A stretch of 36,497 nt of DNA from Bacteroidota bacterium (GTDB lineage Bacteria > Bacteroidota > Bacteroidia > UBA7662 > JAIXUI01), in contig JAIXUI010000121.1 in assembly GCA_027484125.1 (NCBI GenBank), positions 1 to 36,497 of the forward strand, written 5' to 3'. The notes below the pieces were generated by a model. The model saw only the letters and a list, made by a program, of their open reading frames with translations, searched no databases and was not told where the DNA came from. Shown piece by piece: positions 7,134 through 12,723 of the stretch; the first letter of the stretch is position 1, and each line of letters begins with the position of its first letter. The translations under genes were made by a program, and so were the position numbers.

Positions 7134-8249
7134 ATGGCATACAGATTTACGGTTACAGAGCTGAACCAGCATGTCAAAAACTTGCTTGAATCAGCTCCTT
7201 TTTTCCGCGGAGTAGAGGTGAGTGGAGAAATTGCTGATTTTAAACAGCACTCCTCCGGTCATCGCTATTTCACCATAAAAGATGAGTCCGGACAGTTGAC
7301 CTGTGTGATGTTTCGCACCCAACGCCTCGACTTTGTTCCAAAGAATGGGGATAAAGTACTGATTACTGCTGATTTAACGGTGTATGCTGCAAGAGGAATC
7401 TATCAGCTGCAGGTTGCCAGTATGAAGCTGGAGGGAATGGGGACACTGTTTCAGCAGTTCATTGAACTTCGGGATAAATTGGCAAAGGAGGGGCTGTTTG
7501 AAGAGTCGAGAAAACGTTCTTGGACGCGCTATCCACGCGCAATAGGGGTAGTGACTTCCGCAACAGGAGCTGTAATTGAAGACATACAAACTACGCTTGC
7601 ACGCCGTCATCCATTAACTCGAATCTTGCTGGCGCCGTCCTTGGTTCAAGGGCCAGATGCGCCAGCCAACTTGATTTTGTCGCTTCGTCAACTTGAAAGG
7701 GTTGAAGAGGTAGATCTCATCATCATCGGTAGAGGAGGAGGTTCAATGGAGGATTTATGGTGCTTCAATGATGAGCATTTGGTGCGGGCAATTGCAGCTT
7801 GTAAAAAGCCTGTTATCGCAGCCATAGGGCATGAAACTGACTTTACACTTTCTGATTTTGCAGCTGATCGGCGGGCTCCTACGCCTACTGCTGCTGCTGA
7901 AATGGCAGCCGCTGACTTGAATGAAGTCAGACAGTGGTTAGTGGATGCTGCTCACAATCAGCAAAAACGCATGGAAAACCGCTTTTTGCAGCGCAGTCAA
8001 TGGTTGGATGATATGGAAGATAAGTTGACGATGCAGGTGGAAGGTAGGATGAAAATGATTCGTCAGTTTTTAGACAGCAAGGAGGCTCTGCTCAAAGCAT
8101 CGCATTTCGAAACGGTACTTCAACGTGGTTACTCCATTACCTTAAAAGACGGTAAAGTGCTCCAATCAGTTTCTGGCATCAAAGCAGGTGATGAAATCAC
8201 TACTCGATTTTCAGACGGCACGGTTACCAGTACCGTTACTCACCAATAG
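7134..8249 (+). CDS. xseA: Exodeoxyribonuclease VII large subunit
   Basis: A 371-residue XseA, somewhat shorter than the 456-residue E. coli protein and typical of the compact form. I chose the ATG at 7134, since MAYRFTVTELNQHVKNLLE is the normal family start and CAGGAG precedes it; an upstream GTG would lie within the symporter gene. Residues 1 to about 100 form the OB-fold DNA-binding domain (SGEIADFKQHSSGHRYFTIKD). The catalytic domain follows, with GRGGGSMEDLW at 199-209 and GHETDFTLSDFAADRRAPTP from 232. The C-terminal helical region binds many copies of XseB. With XseB it degrades single-stranded DNA from both ends. xseB is not adjacent but lies 1.7 kb away, beyond an opposite-strand gene. 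The last 14 bp overlap the end of that converging gene. Confidence 0.96.
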   Translation: MAYRFTVTELNQHVKNLLESAPFFRGVEVSGEIADFKQHSSGHRYFTIKDESGQLTCVMFRTQRLDFVPKNGDKVLITADLTVYAARGIYQLQVASMKLEGMGTLFQQFIELRDKLAKEGLFEESRKRSWTRYPRAIGVVTSATGAVIEDIQTTLARRHPLTRILLAPSLVQGPDAPANLILSLRQLERVEEVDLIIIGRGGGSMEDLWCFNDEHLVRAIAACKKPVIAAIGHETDFTLSDFAADRRAPTPTAAAEMAAADLNEVRQWLVDAAHNQQKRMENRFLQRSQWLDDMEDKLTMQVEGRMKMIRQFLDSKEALLKASHFETVLQRGYSITLKDGKVLQSVSGIKAGDEITTRFSDGTVTSTVTHQ

Positions 8250-9927
8250 GTTTTTTTACTACAAATAGCCCATGTAAGTGTCCATAAACGGGCGCTTTTT
8301 CTTTGTCTTTTTCCTCCACCATTTCGGTAGGCCTATTCCACTGCACCCCTGCCTGTTTTAGCCTACTTTCGTCGGTCCCCATCCAACCGAGAATGATGAT
8401 GTTTTGCCTATTTCTCTTTAAATCATCCATCCAGGCATGAAAGGCTCGGTCTTCATTGATCTGATGACTTATCAATCGGACATGCACAATCAGTAAATTG
8501 ATGCCGATGAGAATCATCAACCAATAGGATAAAATACCCGGTTTGCGTTTGTTGGTTGCATGCCATAAGAGCAAAAGAGGGGCAAACCAAAGTTGTGGAA
8601 TATAACGAGCCATCCAGTTTTGCTCTAGCCAAAAGACTGGAGAAATCAACAACAGAAAAAGAATCCATGCAGGAAATGGCATTTTTTGTTGCAAAAGGAG
8701 GGCAAGCAAGAGAATGAATGTGAATAATAGAATTTCTTGAAAAAAAGGAACAAAGCTGTTTAATTCAGGAGCAGCCCCATCGTAAATGCCAAGGTCTAAT
8801 GGAATTTGAAAAATTGGGCGTTGCTTGTTTTTTTCTGGTGCCCTTATGAAAAGAGGTTCGGCAGTGTGCGATTTATAAAAACGTTCGAATCTGTTGGTAT
8901 TGAAAAAATCGGCGGGATAGCAGGTTTCTGAAACTTGCTTATTGACATTGTTTTCTCCTAAAAGCGGGTAGAACATATGGCCTTTTTCGAGGTGGTTTCG
9001 CACATAAGTTGGATATCCTAAACCTCCTATGCCAAGTAATCCGAATAACAGACCTACAATAACAAGCATTCCGGGCGACAACTGTGCTATCCACATCTGC
9101 CTCCAGGTCCAAGCGCCTCCTATGAGCACAACATAGAGGAGCCCGGTGAATTTTAAATTGGCAATAAATACAGCTAGAATCAAAATCGAAAATCCAAAGT
9201 ATCTGGAGCCGGTTTTTTCAGCCTGATAAAATCCAAACATCATTAAAAGCAGCCCCGACGCCAGCTCTCCGTCGATGTAGTGACTGAACATCAGGTTCAC
9301 TGATACCGGATTAAATGCTGCAAATACAACTAGGATTGCTTTAAGTAATCGATTGCGTTTTTCTTGCAAAGCCACAACAAGCCCGCTTCCCAAAGCGGCG
9401 AGCATCATAATCCACTGATTAATCCTTCCTGCATCTTGAATGTCAAGCAGTTGAACCCAGCTTGCTCCAGCTATCCATGAGCCTTTTGCATAGTGATTGA
9501 CGTATAATTCAGCGAATGGAAACGTGTCTTGTGGTAAATATTGATAGAATGGATTCCAACCTTCCCAAGCTAAGGCTTGAATGGCTTTGAGGTGGTACCA
9601 ATTGCCATCGTAACTGTGGTCGAAGGTCCAGCTGGCTAAAGGCACCATGGAAGAAATAGCCAAAACTGTTAACACAATCCCCGCGGGAAGAATACGAGCC
9701 GGAGATTTACATGCTAATCGTGAACCTAACAACTGAAAGGCTACCCAAATTAGGCCGCCTGTGAGAGTAGAAAATTTACTGATTGGTCCAAACCAAGCAA
9801 GCCATGCTGCATTGGTAAGGGCAAAAAAAGCAGGTAAACAGCCAAGGCTGAAAAACCACCAGAAAAGAAGGGGAAGGTCCGGCTGTTGCCTAACCATGAG
9901 GGGAGTCAGTATGGGCTTCCGGTGCAT
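8236..9927 (-). CDS. Polytopic membrane protein, GT-C glycosyltransferase-like
   Basis: A 563-residue protein dominated by hydrophobic helices, about ten to twelve by eye, with a soluble C-terminal tail. After the first membrane segments comes SYDGNWYHLKAIQALAW, which recalls the acidic motif in the first luminal loop of GT-C enzymes (PMT/ArnT/GT39 type). GT-C enzymes transfer sugars from polyprenyl-phosphate donors. A dolichol-phosphate-mannose-synthase-like gene is present at 32712-33443, so a donor may exist in the cell. The function is inferred from this general architecture only. I chose the ATG at 9927 (MHRKPILTP) because a perfect -7 box ends 6 nt before it; the longer frame would overlap that promoter. 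It converges on xseA with a 14-bp overlap. Confidence 0.62.
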   Translation of the reverse strand: MHRKPILTPLMVRQQPDLPLLFWWFFSLGCLPAFFALTNAAWLAWFGPISKFSTLTGGLIWVAFQLLGSRLACKSPARILPAGIVLTVLAISSMVPLASWTFDHSYDGNWYHLKAIQALAWEGWNPFYQYLPQDTFPFAELYVNHYAKGSWIAGASWVQLLDIQDAGRINQWIMMLAALGSGLVVALQEKRNRLLKAILVVFAAFNPVSVNLMFSHYIDGELASGLLLMMFGFYQAEKTGSRYFGFSILILAVFIANLKFTGLLYVVLIGGAWTWRQMWIAQLSPGMLVIVGLLFGLLGIGGLGYPTYVRNHLEKGHMFYPLLGENNVNKQVSETCYPADFFNTNRFERFYKSHTAEPLFIRAPEKNKQRPIFQIPLDLGIYDGAAPELNSFVPFFQEILLFTFILLLALLLQQKMPFPAWILFLLLISPVFWLEQNWMARYIPQLWFAPLLLLWHATNKRKPGILSYWLMILIGINLLIVHVRLISHQINEDRAFHAWMDDLKRNRQNIIILGWMGTDESRLKQAGVQWNRPTEMVEEKDKEKAPVYGHLHGLFVVKKPIGE

Positions 9928-9933
9928 GCAGCG

Positions 9934-9941
9934 CAAAAGTA
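9934..9941 (-). promoter_or_regulatory. -7 box for the GT-C-like gene
   Basis: The minus-strand sequence TACTTTTG fits TAnnTTTG and ends 6 nt before the ATG at 9927, implying an almost leaderless mRNA. No clear -33 TTG is visible at the usual distance. It lies back to back with the xseB box. Confidence 0.55.
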
Positions 9942-9979
9942 CAGATTTACGCATTCCGCAGTTGTTCAGATGTGCTGCT

Positions 9980-9991: not shown

Positions 9992-10195
9992 ATGCAAATT
10001 CGGATTGAAGAAAAACTCAAACGTATTCGTCAGATTTCAGATCTGCTTCAGCAAGAACAAACAGACTTAGATCAGGCTTTAGCCCTTTATCATGAGTCTA
10101 TGGAGTTGATTCAGGCTTGTCGTGCTTCACTTGATCAGGCTAGTCTTCAGTTTGAAATGCTTAAAAGGCCAAACAAGCCTGATGACCACGCCTGA
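9992..10195 (+). CDS. xseB: Exodeoxyribonuclease VII small subunit
   Basis: A 67-residue, mostly helical protein that fits XseB in size and layout. The conserved pattern is a first amphipathic helix (EEKLKRIRQISDLLQQEQTD), then DLDQALALYHESMELIQACR, equivalent to the family's ExG-x-L-x-L-E-E-S-L-x-x-Y-E-x-G-x-x-L core, and a third helix. Several copies coat the large subunit's C-terminal helix in exonuclease VII and modulate its activity. The partner gene xseA lies 1.7 kb upstream on the same strand, separated by an opposite-strand gene, so the subunits are made from different transcripts. The 3' end overlaps the start of the next gene by 14 bp, suggesting translational coupling. Confidence 0.85.
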   Translation: MQIRIEEKLKRIRQISDLLQQEQTDLDQALALYHESMELIQACRASLDQASLQFEMLKRPNKPDDHA

Positions 10196-10571
10196 TTGGT
10201 ATCAAGGAATTGGGCCTGCCGATTTTAACGCTCACCTGCTTACAGCTTGTGTACGCCAATTGTTGGTAGATATTGCTCGTTCAGGACTCGAGTTTCATTG
10301 GGAAGAGAATACTGAACAAGATTTGGGTCAGTTGCACCCTCGATTAAGTCAGTTTTTGGAGGGACTTCAGCGCAGCTCAGGGGATGTTTTACAACGGCTG
10401 ATGTATCGCATTGATGTCTCAGAATCAGCTTTGCGGGCGGTTTTGCGCAACCATCCTACTAGCCGAGGTTCTGCTGATGCTTTAGCTACTTTGGTGCTTA
10501 AGCGTGAAATGCAAAAAGTAATGATAAGAGAATACCTAAGTGGAGGCTCCGGAAATAGCACTAAGGCATAA
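10182..10571 (+). CDS. Uncharacterised 129-residue protein coupled to xseB
   Basis: I do not recognise this gene. The ATG at 10182 starts MTTPDWYQGIGPADFNAHLL inside the end of xseB (14-bp overlap, different frame); a longer frame open from 10122 would lie wholly within xseB. The predicted protein has no signal peptide or membrane segment. It appears mainly helical, with several acidic and Leu-rich stretches (QFLEGLQRSSGDVLQRLMYRI) and a basic C-terminal helix (LVLKREMQKVMIREYL). The overlap suggests it is translated with xseB, and so might act in DNA metabolism, but it could equally be an accident of compaction. Its last 11 bp overlap the end of the converging LysE-family gene. Confidence 0.7.
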   Translation: MTTPDWYQGIGPADFNAHLLTACVRQLLVDIARSGLEFHWEENTEQDLGQLHPRLSQFLEGLQRSSGDVLQRLMYRIDVSESALRAVLRNHPTSRGSADALATLVLKREMQKVMIREYLSGGSGNSTKA

Positions 10572-11184
10572 ACGCCTGTCCCGCTAGAACTTTATACAGA
10601 ATAGTGCCTCCTCCGATTACCAGCACTGCCCCTGAAAATTGGTTGATGCGAAGTAGCACTTGTGCATTTAGAACTTTTTGTAATCGCTTGGCTATATAAG
10701 CTTTGGCTAAATCTGTACCGAATACCACTCCCAAGGCACCTGTGAAAAACAGGGGGACTTCTGAAGTGTCAAAAACACTATTGACCCAACTTACATTTCC
10801 TAACCAATAGGTGATGGCAAAGGGGTTTAACGTGTTGAGTAAAAAGCCTTTAAGCAAAGGTCCTCCTTTACGAAATTTACTGTCGTCAGCGGGTTTTACT
10901 TCAATACGTCGTTTAAGTAACATACTTAGACCATACAAGGTCATGAAAGCACTTCCTATTAAACCTAAGTATTTCATAAATACGGGGTCGTGGAATAAAC
11001 TCACTAACCCGAAGTAAGAAATTGCTACACAAAGTGCGTCACTTAGGAGAATACCGAGTGCCATAAAAGCGCCTGCTGAAAATCCGCGGGTAATGCTTGT
11101 TTGCATTAAGGCAAAGAAAACAGGGCCTCCTAGCATCAATGCTACTAAGAAGCCGAAGCCTATGCCTTGCCAGAGGGCGTCCAA
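10561..11184 (-). CDS. LysE/RhtB-family amino-acid exporter
   Basis: A 207-residue inner-membrane protein with about six hydrophobic segments, the normal size for the LysE superfamily. The N-terminal signature GFLVALMLGGPVFFALMQTS, with its Gly-Pro turn, and GAFMALGILLSDALC are typical. A basic loop (LKRRIEVKPADDSKFRKGG) lies after the third segment, followed by GFLLNTLNPFAITYW. Members export amino acids or derivatives by proton antiport; substrates vary, and none can be named here. The start codon lies 3 nt after the stop of the GH3-family gene, so the two form a tight operon. That suggests the exporter may handle a product or substrate of that enzyme, which is inference. Confidence 0.9.
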   Translation of the reverse strand: MDALWQGIGFGFLVALMLGGPVFFALMQTSITRGFSAGAFMALGILLSDALCVAISYFGLVSLFHDPVFMKYLGLIGSAFMTLYGLSMLLKRRIEVKPADDSKFRKGGPLLKGFLLNTLNPFAITYWLGNVSWVNSVFDTSEVPLFFTGALGVVFGTDLAKAYIAKRLQKVLNAQVLLRINQFSGAVLVIGGGTILYKVLAGQAFMP

Positions 11185-11187
11185 AAC

Positions 11188-12723
11188 TTAAATAGAGATT
11201 TTTCTGGAAGCTAAAAAGGTCTTCCAATCTTGAACAAATGATTTATTTAAAACACGGGGGAATTTGTGTTGTCCACCCATCTTCCCTTTACTTTCCAACC
11301 AATCAAAAAATATTTGATTAGGAAGTACGATGACTTCTACTTTTTCTAAAGCATGCAGTCGTTCGGTAGCGTAGTCATCGTTGATTGATTTTAGCTGAAT
11401 GTCGATGGCTTGGCTTAAGGTACTGGCTTCAATCGCATCGTCGCAGCCAATGTACCAACGATGTCCGAATAGATTGTTTTCAGTGGTATAACCTTCCGTG
11501 GTAAACTCTTTGATTTTCAGATTGAATTTCTCGCTTACGTGATGGATAGCATTATTCATATTATCCACCGAAAGGTGCTCTCCACAAAGGGAAAGGAAGT
11601 GCTTGGTTCGTCCACAGATTCTGATTTCGCTATGTTTGAGCGAGGTGAATTGAATCACATCGCCAATTAAATAGCGGTAAGCACCTGCACAGGAGGTGAG
11701 CAATAAAGCGTAAGGCTTATTTTCTTCTACTTGACCAATGTGCAGGGTTTTCGCTTCTGGTTTTACGTTGCCTTCTTCGTCAAAATTTTCTTCGTTGAAA
11801 GGGATAAATTCATAGTAGATGCCGTTGTTCAGAATCAGCTTCATGCCGGTTCTTTCAGAGCGAGCATCGTAAGCGATAAATCCTTCAGAGGCCAAGTAAG
11901 TTTCGAAATAGATGAGCGGGTGATCCAATAAGCGTTCAAAACCTTGCTTGTATGGTTCGAAACTCACGCCACCGTGGGCATATACTTTAAGATTTGGCCA
12001 GATTTCATGGATATTCTTGAGGTTGTATCGCTCAATGATTCGCTCCATGATGATTTGAAGCCAAGCCGGAACGCCTGCAATTATCCAGATGTCCCATTCT
12101 TTGGCATGCGAAACGATGCTTTCAATCTTTTCTTCCCAGTCTTTTACTTTGGCAATCTGCTTTCCTGGTTTGTAGAAACGTTCGAACCAGAATGGGATTT
12201 TGCTGGCGTTGATACCACTTAAGTCGCCGGAGAAGTAGGAGCCGTTAAAGTTGAGGTGTGTACTTCCACCCACCATCAACATCCCTTTTTCGAATAAATT
12301 CGACGGAAGGTTGTAGTGAGCGAGGGTGTAAATTTGTTTGAAGCTGGCCTTCCGCATGGCTTTAATCATGTCTTCCGTAACCGGAATGTATTTGGAAGAA
12401 GCTTCTGAAGTGCCAGAACTAAGTGCAAAGTAACGAGTAACTCCAGGCCAAGTAACATTTGGAACAGAATCTAACTGTTTGTGCCACCAAGCTTTATAGA
12501 TGGAGTTGTAATCGTAAATAGGCAAACTACCGCTGTAAGCTTTTAAGATATCCGGGCTCTTTAGGATGTCATCGAAGTGAAAATGCTCTCCTATTTGTGT
12601 TTTTTCGGCGGTTTTCAGGAGTTTTCTCAATACAAGTCGTTGTTGTTGTTCGGCATCGAATAACTGAAAACTCAGCGCGGTTCTGAGTTTGAGACTCTTC
12701 TGAAAAATCGTTCCTAATAACAC
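11188..12723 (-). CDS. GH3-family acyl-adenylating / amino-acid-conjugating enzyme
   Basis: A 511-residue protein of the GH3 (auxin-responsive promoter) family within the ANL adenylating superfamily. Motifs seen are the phosphate-binding loop FALSSGTSEASSKYIP (around 100-114), YFETYLASEGFIAYD (the second adenylate-binding motif, GH3 T/SEG pattern), and YRYLIGDVIQFTSL followed by ICGRTKHFLSLCGEHL. Plant GH3 enzymes adenylate a carboxylic acid and join it to an amino acid; bacterial members are largely uncharacterised. I chose the GTG at 12723 (LLGTIFQKSLKLRTAL follows), since the frame further upstream crosses the divergent rfbA promoter and start. A -7-like box with one mismatch (TATTTTCG, 12753-12746) lies upstream. 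It is followed 3 nt later by the LysE-family exporter gene. Confidence 0.88.
   Translation of the reverse strand: MLLGTIFQKSLKLRTALSFQLFDAEQQQRLVLRKLLKTAEKTQIGEHFHFDDILKSPDILKAYSGSLPIYDYNSIYKAWWHKQLDSVPNVTWPGVTRYFALSSGTSEASSKYIPVTEDMIKAMRKASFKQIYTLAHYNLPSNLFEKGMLMVGGSTHLNFNGSYFSGDLSGINASKIPFWFERFYKPGKQIAKVKDWEEKIESIVSHAKEWDIWIIAGVPAWLQIIMERIIERYNLKNIHEIWPNLKVYAHGGVSFEPYKQGFERLLDHPLIYFETYLASEGFIAYDARSERTGMKLILNNGIYYEFIPFNEENFDEEGNVKPEAKTLHIGQVEENKPYALLLTSCAGAYRYLIGDVIQFTSLKHSEIRICGRTKHFLSLCGEHLSVDNMNNAIHHVSEKFNLKIKEFTTEGYTTENNLFGHRWYIGCDDAIEASTLSQAIDIQLKSINDDYATERLHALEKVEVIVLPNQIFFDWLESKGKMGGQHKFPRVLNKSFVQDWKTFLASRKISI

Follow-up and report, generated by a model that had tools for sequence, protein, structure and literature searches.

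A conserved GH3-LysE gene pair in Bacteroidia and its possible role in making and moving aminolipids

The window analysed here, a stretch of 36,497 nucleotides from a Bacteroidota genome, carries a gene for a GH3 enzyme of a clade that we call A (GH3-A) and, just downstream, a gene for a LysE/RhtB-type six-helix membrane carrier (hereafter LysE), and this pair recurs widely within the class Bacteroidia. We suggest that GH3-A joins a lipid carboxylate to an amino acid and that LysE exports or flips the product, a proposal that draws on sequence, structural models and analogy and in which our confidence is about evenly balanced. GH3-A would use ATP to adenylate the carboxylate of a lipid, more likely an N-acyl amino acid or aminolipid than a long-chain fatty acid, and would pass the activated acyl group on to an amino acid, forming an amide with its amino group; the LysE protein of the same operon would then export this product or flip it across the inner membrane. 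Amide formation, the lipid nature of the acyl substrate, the identity of the amino acid and the cargo of LysE are the elements that we infer.

Both genes lie on the reverse strand. GH3-A (11188..12723, 511 aa; assigned by Pfam, orthologue alignment, tree and PDB fold matches) starts with GTG at 12723 and ends with the TAA stop at 11188-11190, and LysE (10561..11184, 207 aa; assigned by PF01810 and its model) starts with TTG at 11184, leaving an intergenic gap of 3 nt, GTT, at 11185..11187. The initial annotation had described a two-gene unit with a 3-nt gap at 10561-12723, and this is exact by ORF coordinates. In alignments, the GTG agrees with the starts of GH3-A orthologues and the TTG lines up with the ATG of LysE orthologues; a longer mechanical GH3 ORF reaching 12882 would enter the divergent rfbA-like gene that lies upstream, from 12811. 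At this locus the two genes are in one reading frame, with TAA-GTT between them, which is probably a coincidence, since the offset between GH3-A and LysE varies among relatives. A single GH3-LysE fusion gene interrupted by a stop was also considered and rejected, as orthologues show varying gaps and overlaps. At its other end, LysE converges with a forward-strand ORF of 149 aa (10122-10571) that overlaps it by 11 bp; searches of Pfam and NCBIfam at E ≤ 0.001 gave no match for this ORF or for a membrane-protein-like ORF of 572 aa (8236-9954).

We are highly confident, on the strength of its sequence and predicted fold, that GH3-A is an adenylating amide ligase. Pfam detects the GH3 N-terminal domain (PF03321, 1.8e-26) together with GH3_M (PF23571, 1.8e-16) and GH3_C (PF23572, 1.3e-12), and these matches, like the PF01810 match of LysE (3.8e-22), are all above the gathering cut-offs, which bears out the identities first given to the two genes. 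The three nucleotide-binding motifs, as defined in PMC12493201, were located by alignment on the reverse strand and are intact and conserved across clade-A orthologues: motif 1 is SSGTSEASSK (residues 102-111, 12391..12420), motif 2 is TYLASE (residues 275-280, 11884..11901) and motif 3 is GAYRYLIGD (residues 347-355, 11659..11685). When an AlphaFold2 model of GH3-A (pLDDT 81, pTM 0.68) was compared with the PDB by Foldseek, the top 28 matches were all plant GH3 amido synthetases, the first being JAR1 (E 6.1e-22, TM 0.61), and the nearest solved proteins by sequence were also plant GH3s. These best matches by sequence and structure (JAR1/GH3.11, GH3.1, GH3.5, GH3.6, GH3.12 and GH3.15) have the three motifs in common with GH3-A, but they are ~14-16% identical to it in structural alignments and act on plant hormones and aryl acids; we know of no exporter partner for any plant GH3. 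Beyond the plant enzymes, the fold search gave weaker matches to PaaK-type CoA ligases, from which it could be argued that GH3-A is an acyl-CoA or acyl-ACP synthetase, or an ester-forming one, acting for example in fatty-acid recycling, and no amide ligase. This seems to us very improbable, given that GH3-A has the GH3-specific N-terminal, middle and C-terminal domains and that the GH3s of known activity, from plants as well as OlsH, make amides (PMC12493201).

OlsH is the one bacterial GH3 with known activity that we found. It comes from the planctomycete Singulisphaera acidiphila and was reported in 2025 to form N-acyl ornithine from a fatty acid, ATP and ornithine, with long-chain fatty acids as substrates (PMC12493201). 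Its nucleotide-binding motifs are the same as those of GH3-A, and its model, NF052613, is the sole NCBIfam relative of GH3-A (residues 18-494). The identification of GH3-A as OlsH itself was rejected on score, which at 322 bits is below the equivalog cut-off of 620. The two also differ in their surroundings: OlsH was described as sharing its operon with OlsG and OlsI, and not with LysE (PMC12493201), whereas the O-acyltransferase OlsI was not met at the GH3-A locus, where the partner is LysE. The joining of an acid to an amino acid, which the initial annotation had suggested from the plant enzymes, is well supported as a prediction by family, motifs, fold and the OlsH precedent. Its description of bacterial GH3 proteins as largely uncharacterised is still mostly true, and has to be qualified by the OlsH activity shown in 2025 (PMC12493201).

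Conservation of the pair was examined in 197 Bacteroidia genomes spread evenly over the class, for which a completeness of at least 90% was requested (the class sample). GH3-A is present in 104 of them. A check for conserved adjacency, proposed when the pair was first noticed, has now been run: in 69 of these 104 genomes, LysE immediately follows GH3-A on the same strand, and the 69 cases span 22 of the 37 families possessing GH3-A. The aligned regions of the two genes are 7-222 bp apart in these cases, and wherever GH3-A and LysE are less than 400 bp apart in the class sample, they are on the same strand with LysE downstream. A LysE homologue is found anywhere in the genome in 95 of the 104 genomes with GH3-A as compared with 41 of the 93 without it, and the Fisher tests applied to the co-occurrence counts of the class sample ignore shared ancestry. 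The genes that flank the pair vary by lineage while LysE persists; therefore, the pair is maintained. We regard a functional link between GH3-A and LysE as very likely. That the two should be neighbors by chance or inheritance, with no such link, might be read from the 35 of the 104 genomes where GH3-A has no adjacent LysE, but this explanation is disfavoured and to our minds extremely improbable, because in 69 out of 69 adjacent cases LysE is on the same strand and immediately downstream, and because the flanking genes change from lineage to lineage. Since those 35 genomes are without an adjacent LysE and 9 of the 104 GH3-A genomes in the class sample have no LysE match, LysE would not be strictly required by GH3-A, or another carrier may serve in its place.

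Closer to the source, 39 of 60 relatives (its own genome included) have a GH3-A orthologue, with intact orthologues scoring at least 438 bits, the best non-A protein 314 bits and one truncated A 323 bits; LysE is adjacent by coordinates in 21 of the 39. We also compiled 110 clade-A loci, 30 from relatives and 80 named ones, the latter being the best 80 of 586 and therefore biased as a selection. Among the 110, L081 and L096 have too little downstream sequence to be judged, while L072 and L101 duplicate L014 and L017, respectively, each pair being on one contig. LysE is downstream on the same strand in 77 of the 110, a count that includes the best 80 of 586 named loci, and at 8 further loci, from Spirosoma/Larkinella-type genomes, it is adjacent to GH3-A but convergent with it. 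These convergent loci (L056, L067, L079, L097, L103, L111, L119 and L125) look as if they had been locally inverted. Clustering of the neighbors of 93 of the 110 loci together with the window found LysE in 80 of 94. A third conserved operon member was sought among these neighbors, and only a YggS-like protein, the second commonest neighbor of GH3-A, recurs (33 of 94 loci). In one genus of the same order as the source (g6), all 8 loci examined are without an adjacent LysE.

The LysE of the window resembles the LysE/RhtB exporters in its family match and in its helical membrane build, its model (pLDDT 90) being a mostly helical, multi-helix membrane protein. It differs from them in scoring far below the cut-offs of the NCBIfam exporter models (RhtB-type, 44 bits against a cut-off of 184; LeuE, 38 against 165; RhtC, 33 against 288; L-lysine exporter, 20.5 against 214), and a fold search with the model returned no PDB match at E ≤ 0.001. 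Compared with 23 aligned relatives, it has one additional glycine in the conserved N-terminal GPVFF (LGGPVFF). Proteins of the PF01810 family classically export free amino acids, not lipids, and the cargo of LysE is arguably the weakest step of the lipid-plus-transport reading. It may be that LysE serves solely to export free amino acids or to keep them in balance, that its co-transcription with GH3-A is regulatory, and that what GH3-A makes remains in the membrane unaided. What the family is known to export would fit this idea, as would the nearest NCBIfam models, which, though far below cut-off, are threonine, leucine and lysine exporters, and the LysE homologues of genomes that have no GH3-A. 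However, the pair is kept through rearranged contexts, even in convergent orientation in the Spirosoma/Larkinella-type genomes, which argues for a closer link, and we consider the free amino acid explanation unlikely.

With regard to the acyl substrate, the closest solved structures being those of plant GH3s, GH3-A might act on aryl or short-chain acids, linking them to an amino acid, and LysE might export the conjugate as a signal or detoxification product, as was first put forward for this locus. Within Bacteroidota, Olivibacter produces tyrosine and phenylalanine that are N-acylated with short chains (PMC8433624), and GH3 homologues are reported from its genus (PMC12493201). Against this, OlsH, the only characterised bacterial relative, takes long-chain fatty acids (PMC12493201), and the retention of GH3-A over 37 families resembles an envelope function and not niche detoxification. 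We therefore judge a small-acid substrate to be quite unlikely. We found no support for a signal or detoxification product, and the evidence leans to membrane aminolipids. What stands of the synthesise-and-secrete module suggested at the outset is a conserved synthesis-export unit, for which secretion itself is plausible.

The source genome carries three GH3 genes, one each of clades A, B and C. These clades separate in a tree of 46 sequences, each supported 100/97 or better, and clade A is monophyletic. The clade-B gene (G000:C85:4438-5967, L036) is directly downstream of an lptB-like gene, and the clade-C gene (G000:C37:5878-7362, L037) adjoins dxr/rseP; among the loci examined, GH3-B also follows lptB at L040, L044, L045 and L046, and GH3-C also adjoins dxr and/or rseP at L049, L054 and L055. 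We take these neighbors to be lptB, dxr and rseP from reading their translations. Against the OlsH model (cut-off 620 bits) the paralogues B and C score 398 and 366 bits, respectively. In the class sample, B occurs in 184, C in 120 and A in 104 of the 197 genomes, where clade C was called at E ≤ 1e-135 and one genome (G201, of family f45, whose members score just above this line) may be a missed clade C.

The occurrence of GH3-C is closely tied to that of GlsB. GlsB and GlsA (NF053696/NF053697) were reported to make N-acyl glycine and its O-acylated form, a precursor of serine-glycine lipids (PMC10191378, PMC12746155); they are acyltransferases unrelated to GH3, and the source genome has GH3-C instead. 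The GlsB query was taken from a glsAB operon, both proteins of which pass the NCBIfam equivalog cut-offs, and OlsF-type matches in frames of 543-660 aa were kept apart from the GlsB count. In the class sample, GlsB was found in 75 of 197 genomes and GlsA in 72, every one of them with GlsB. Exactly one of GH3-C and GlsB is present in 191 of the 197 genomes (118 have C and 73 have GlsB), with both in 2 (G092 and G165) and neither in 4. Likewise, 29 of the 60 relatives have C only, 28 GlsB only and 0 both, and of the 3 with neither, two are < 90% complete and one has a 0.5-Mb genome. At the family level, C is the sole one of the two genes in 39 of the 63 families that have either, GlsB is the sole one in 17, and the other 7 are mixed; in five of these seven (f13, f17, f35, f40 and f42) each genome has C or GlsB, never both, the swaps being based on family labels, not a species tree. 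As repeated swaps within families are hard to explain by ancestry alone, GH3-C probably replaces GlsB functionally, by analogy with the replacement of OlsB by OlsH, on counts that are phylogenetically uncorrected. The exclusion supports the placement of the GH3 group in aminolipid synthesis, an argument that concerns paralogue C and not GH3-A. GlsA, GlsB and OlsF were searched for in the source genome and none was found, the sole PF13444 match being a frame of 152 aa (G000:C166:9151-9387) that scores at the cut-off of 22.4 bits. Its three GH3s are thus the only candidates recognised in this analysis for forming acyl-amino acids, and the genome may depend on them for this chemistry.

GH3-A and GlsB occur together in 62 genomes of the class sample, with GH3-A only in 42, GlsB only in 13 and neither in 80, so that the two co-occur above expectation. 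It would be tempting to take GH3-A from this as the serine ligase; the idea was rejected, as 42 of the 104 GH3-A genomes, the source included, are without GlsB. In several genomes of genus g6 (e.g., G012:C70, G010:C141, G020:C5 and G007:C149), GlsB is ~7 kb from GH3-A in a pyrE/pyrR-like neighborhood with no adjacent LysE; outside g6, GlsB and GH3-A are unlinked.

Flavolipin-type lipids are acyl-Gly-Ser, and the steps beyond glycine have been described as unknown (PMC10191378). A study of December 2025 that looked for the serine ligase in six Pfam families states that it "remains to be identified" (PMC12746155), and GH3 (PF03321) is absent from the six as named there. The GH3 clades are specific candidates for this serine-adding step and for neighboring steps of serine-glycine lipids, with GH3-B the candidate serine ligase of flavolipin, lipid 654 and doreamides. 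We speculate that three GH3s in series might build Bacteroidota lipopeptides without NRPS or ribosome: GH3-C, or GlsB where GH3-C is absent, would make N-acyl glycine, GH3-B would add serine, GH3-A would add a third residue, e.g. ornithine, and LysE would move the finished lipid. The assignment of GH3-A to the third residue of Gly-Ser-X lipids is, taken by itself, equally tentative. If the three-ligase reading is true, the GH3 set of a genome predicts its head group, acyl-Gly-Ser-X in the source genome and in Chitinophaga (A+B+C).

More broadly, if the lipid proposal is true, it would provide a function for a gene family that, among bacteria, is reported mainly from Bacteroidota: the authors of the OlsH study place almost 90% of its bacterial homologues in this phylum and expect several of them to use other amino acids (PMC12493201). 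It would also give a LysE/RhtB-type carrier a lipid-linked role and help close gaps in how Bacteroidota build immune-active lipids, their serine-glycine lipids acting on the immune receptor TLR2 (PMC12746155). In the literature searched, we found no paper that connects GH3 to LysE or to the replacement of GlsB. Nor did we see GH3 clade A, its LysE partner or the GH3-C/GlsB exclusion in it; the enzyme family itself has by now been described in part.

Acyl-Gly-Ser-Orn tripeptide lipids were reported as core metabolites common to Chitinophaga strains (PMC8433624). A single named isolate of the genus was searched, Chitinophaga rhizophila; its GH3 genes number exactly three, with each clade represented once, and LysE lies downstream of GH3-A. 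The correspondence between three amide bonds and three ligases in this species, possibly not a chemically analysed strain, is suggestive. The genomes of Algoriphagus, Mariniradius and Mongoliitalea searched alongside have no clade C, and the three Larkinella genomes searched have four GH3 genes apiece.
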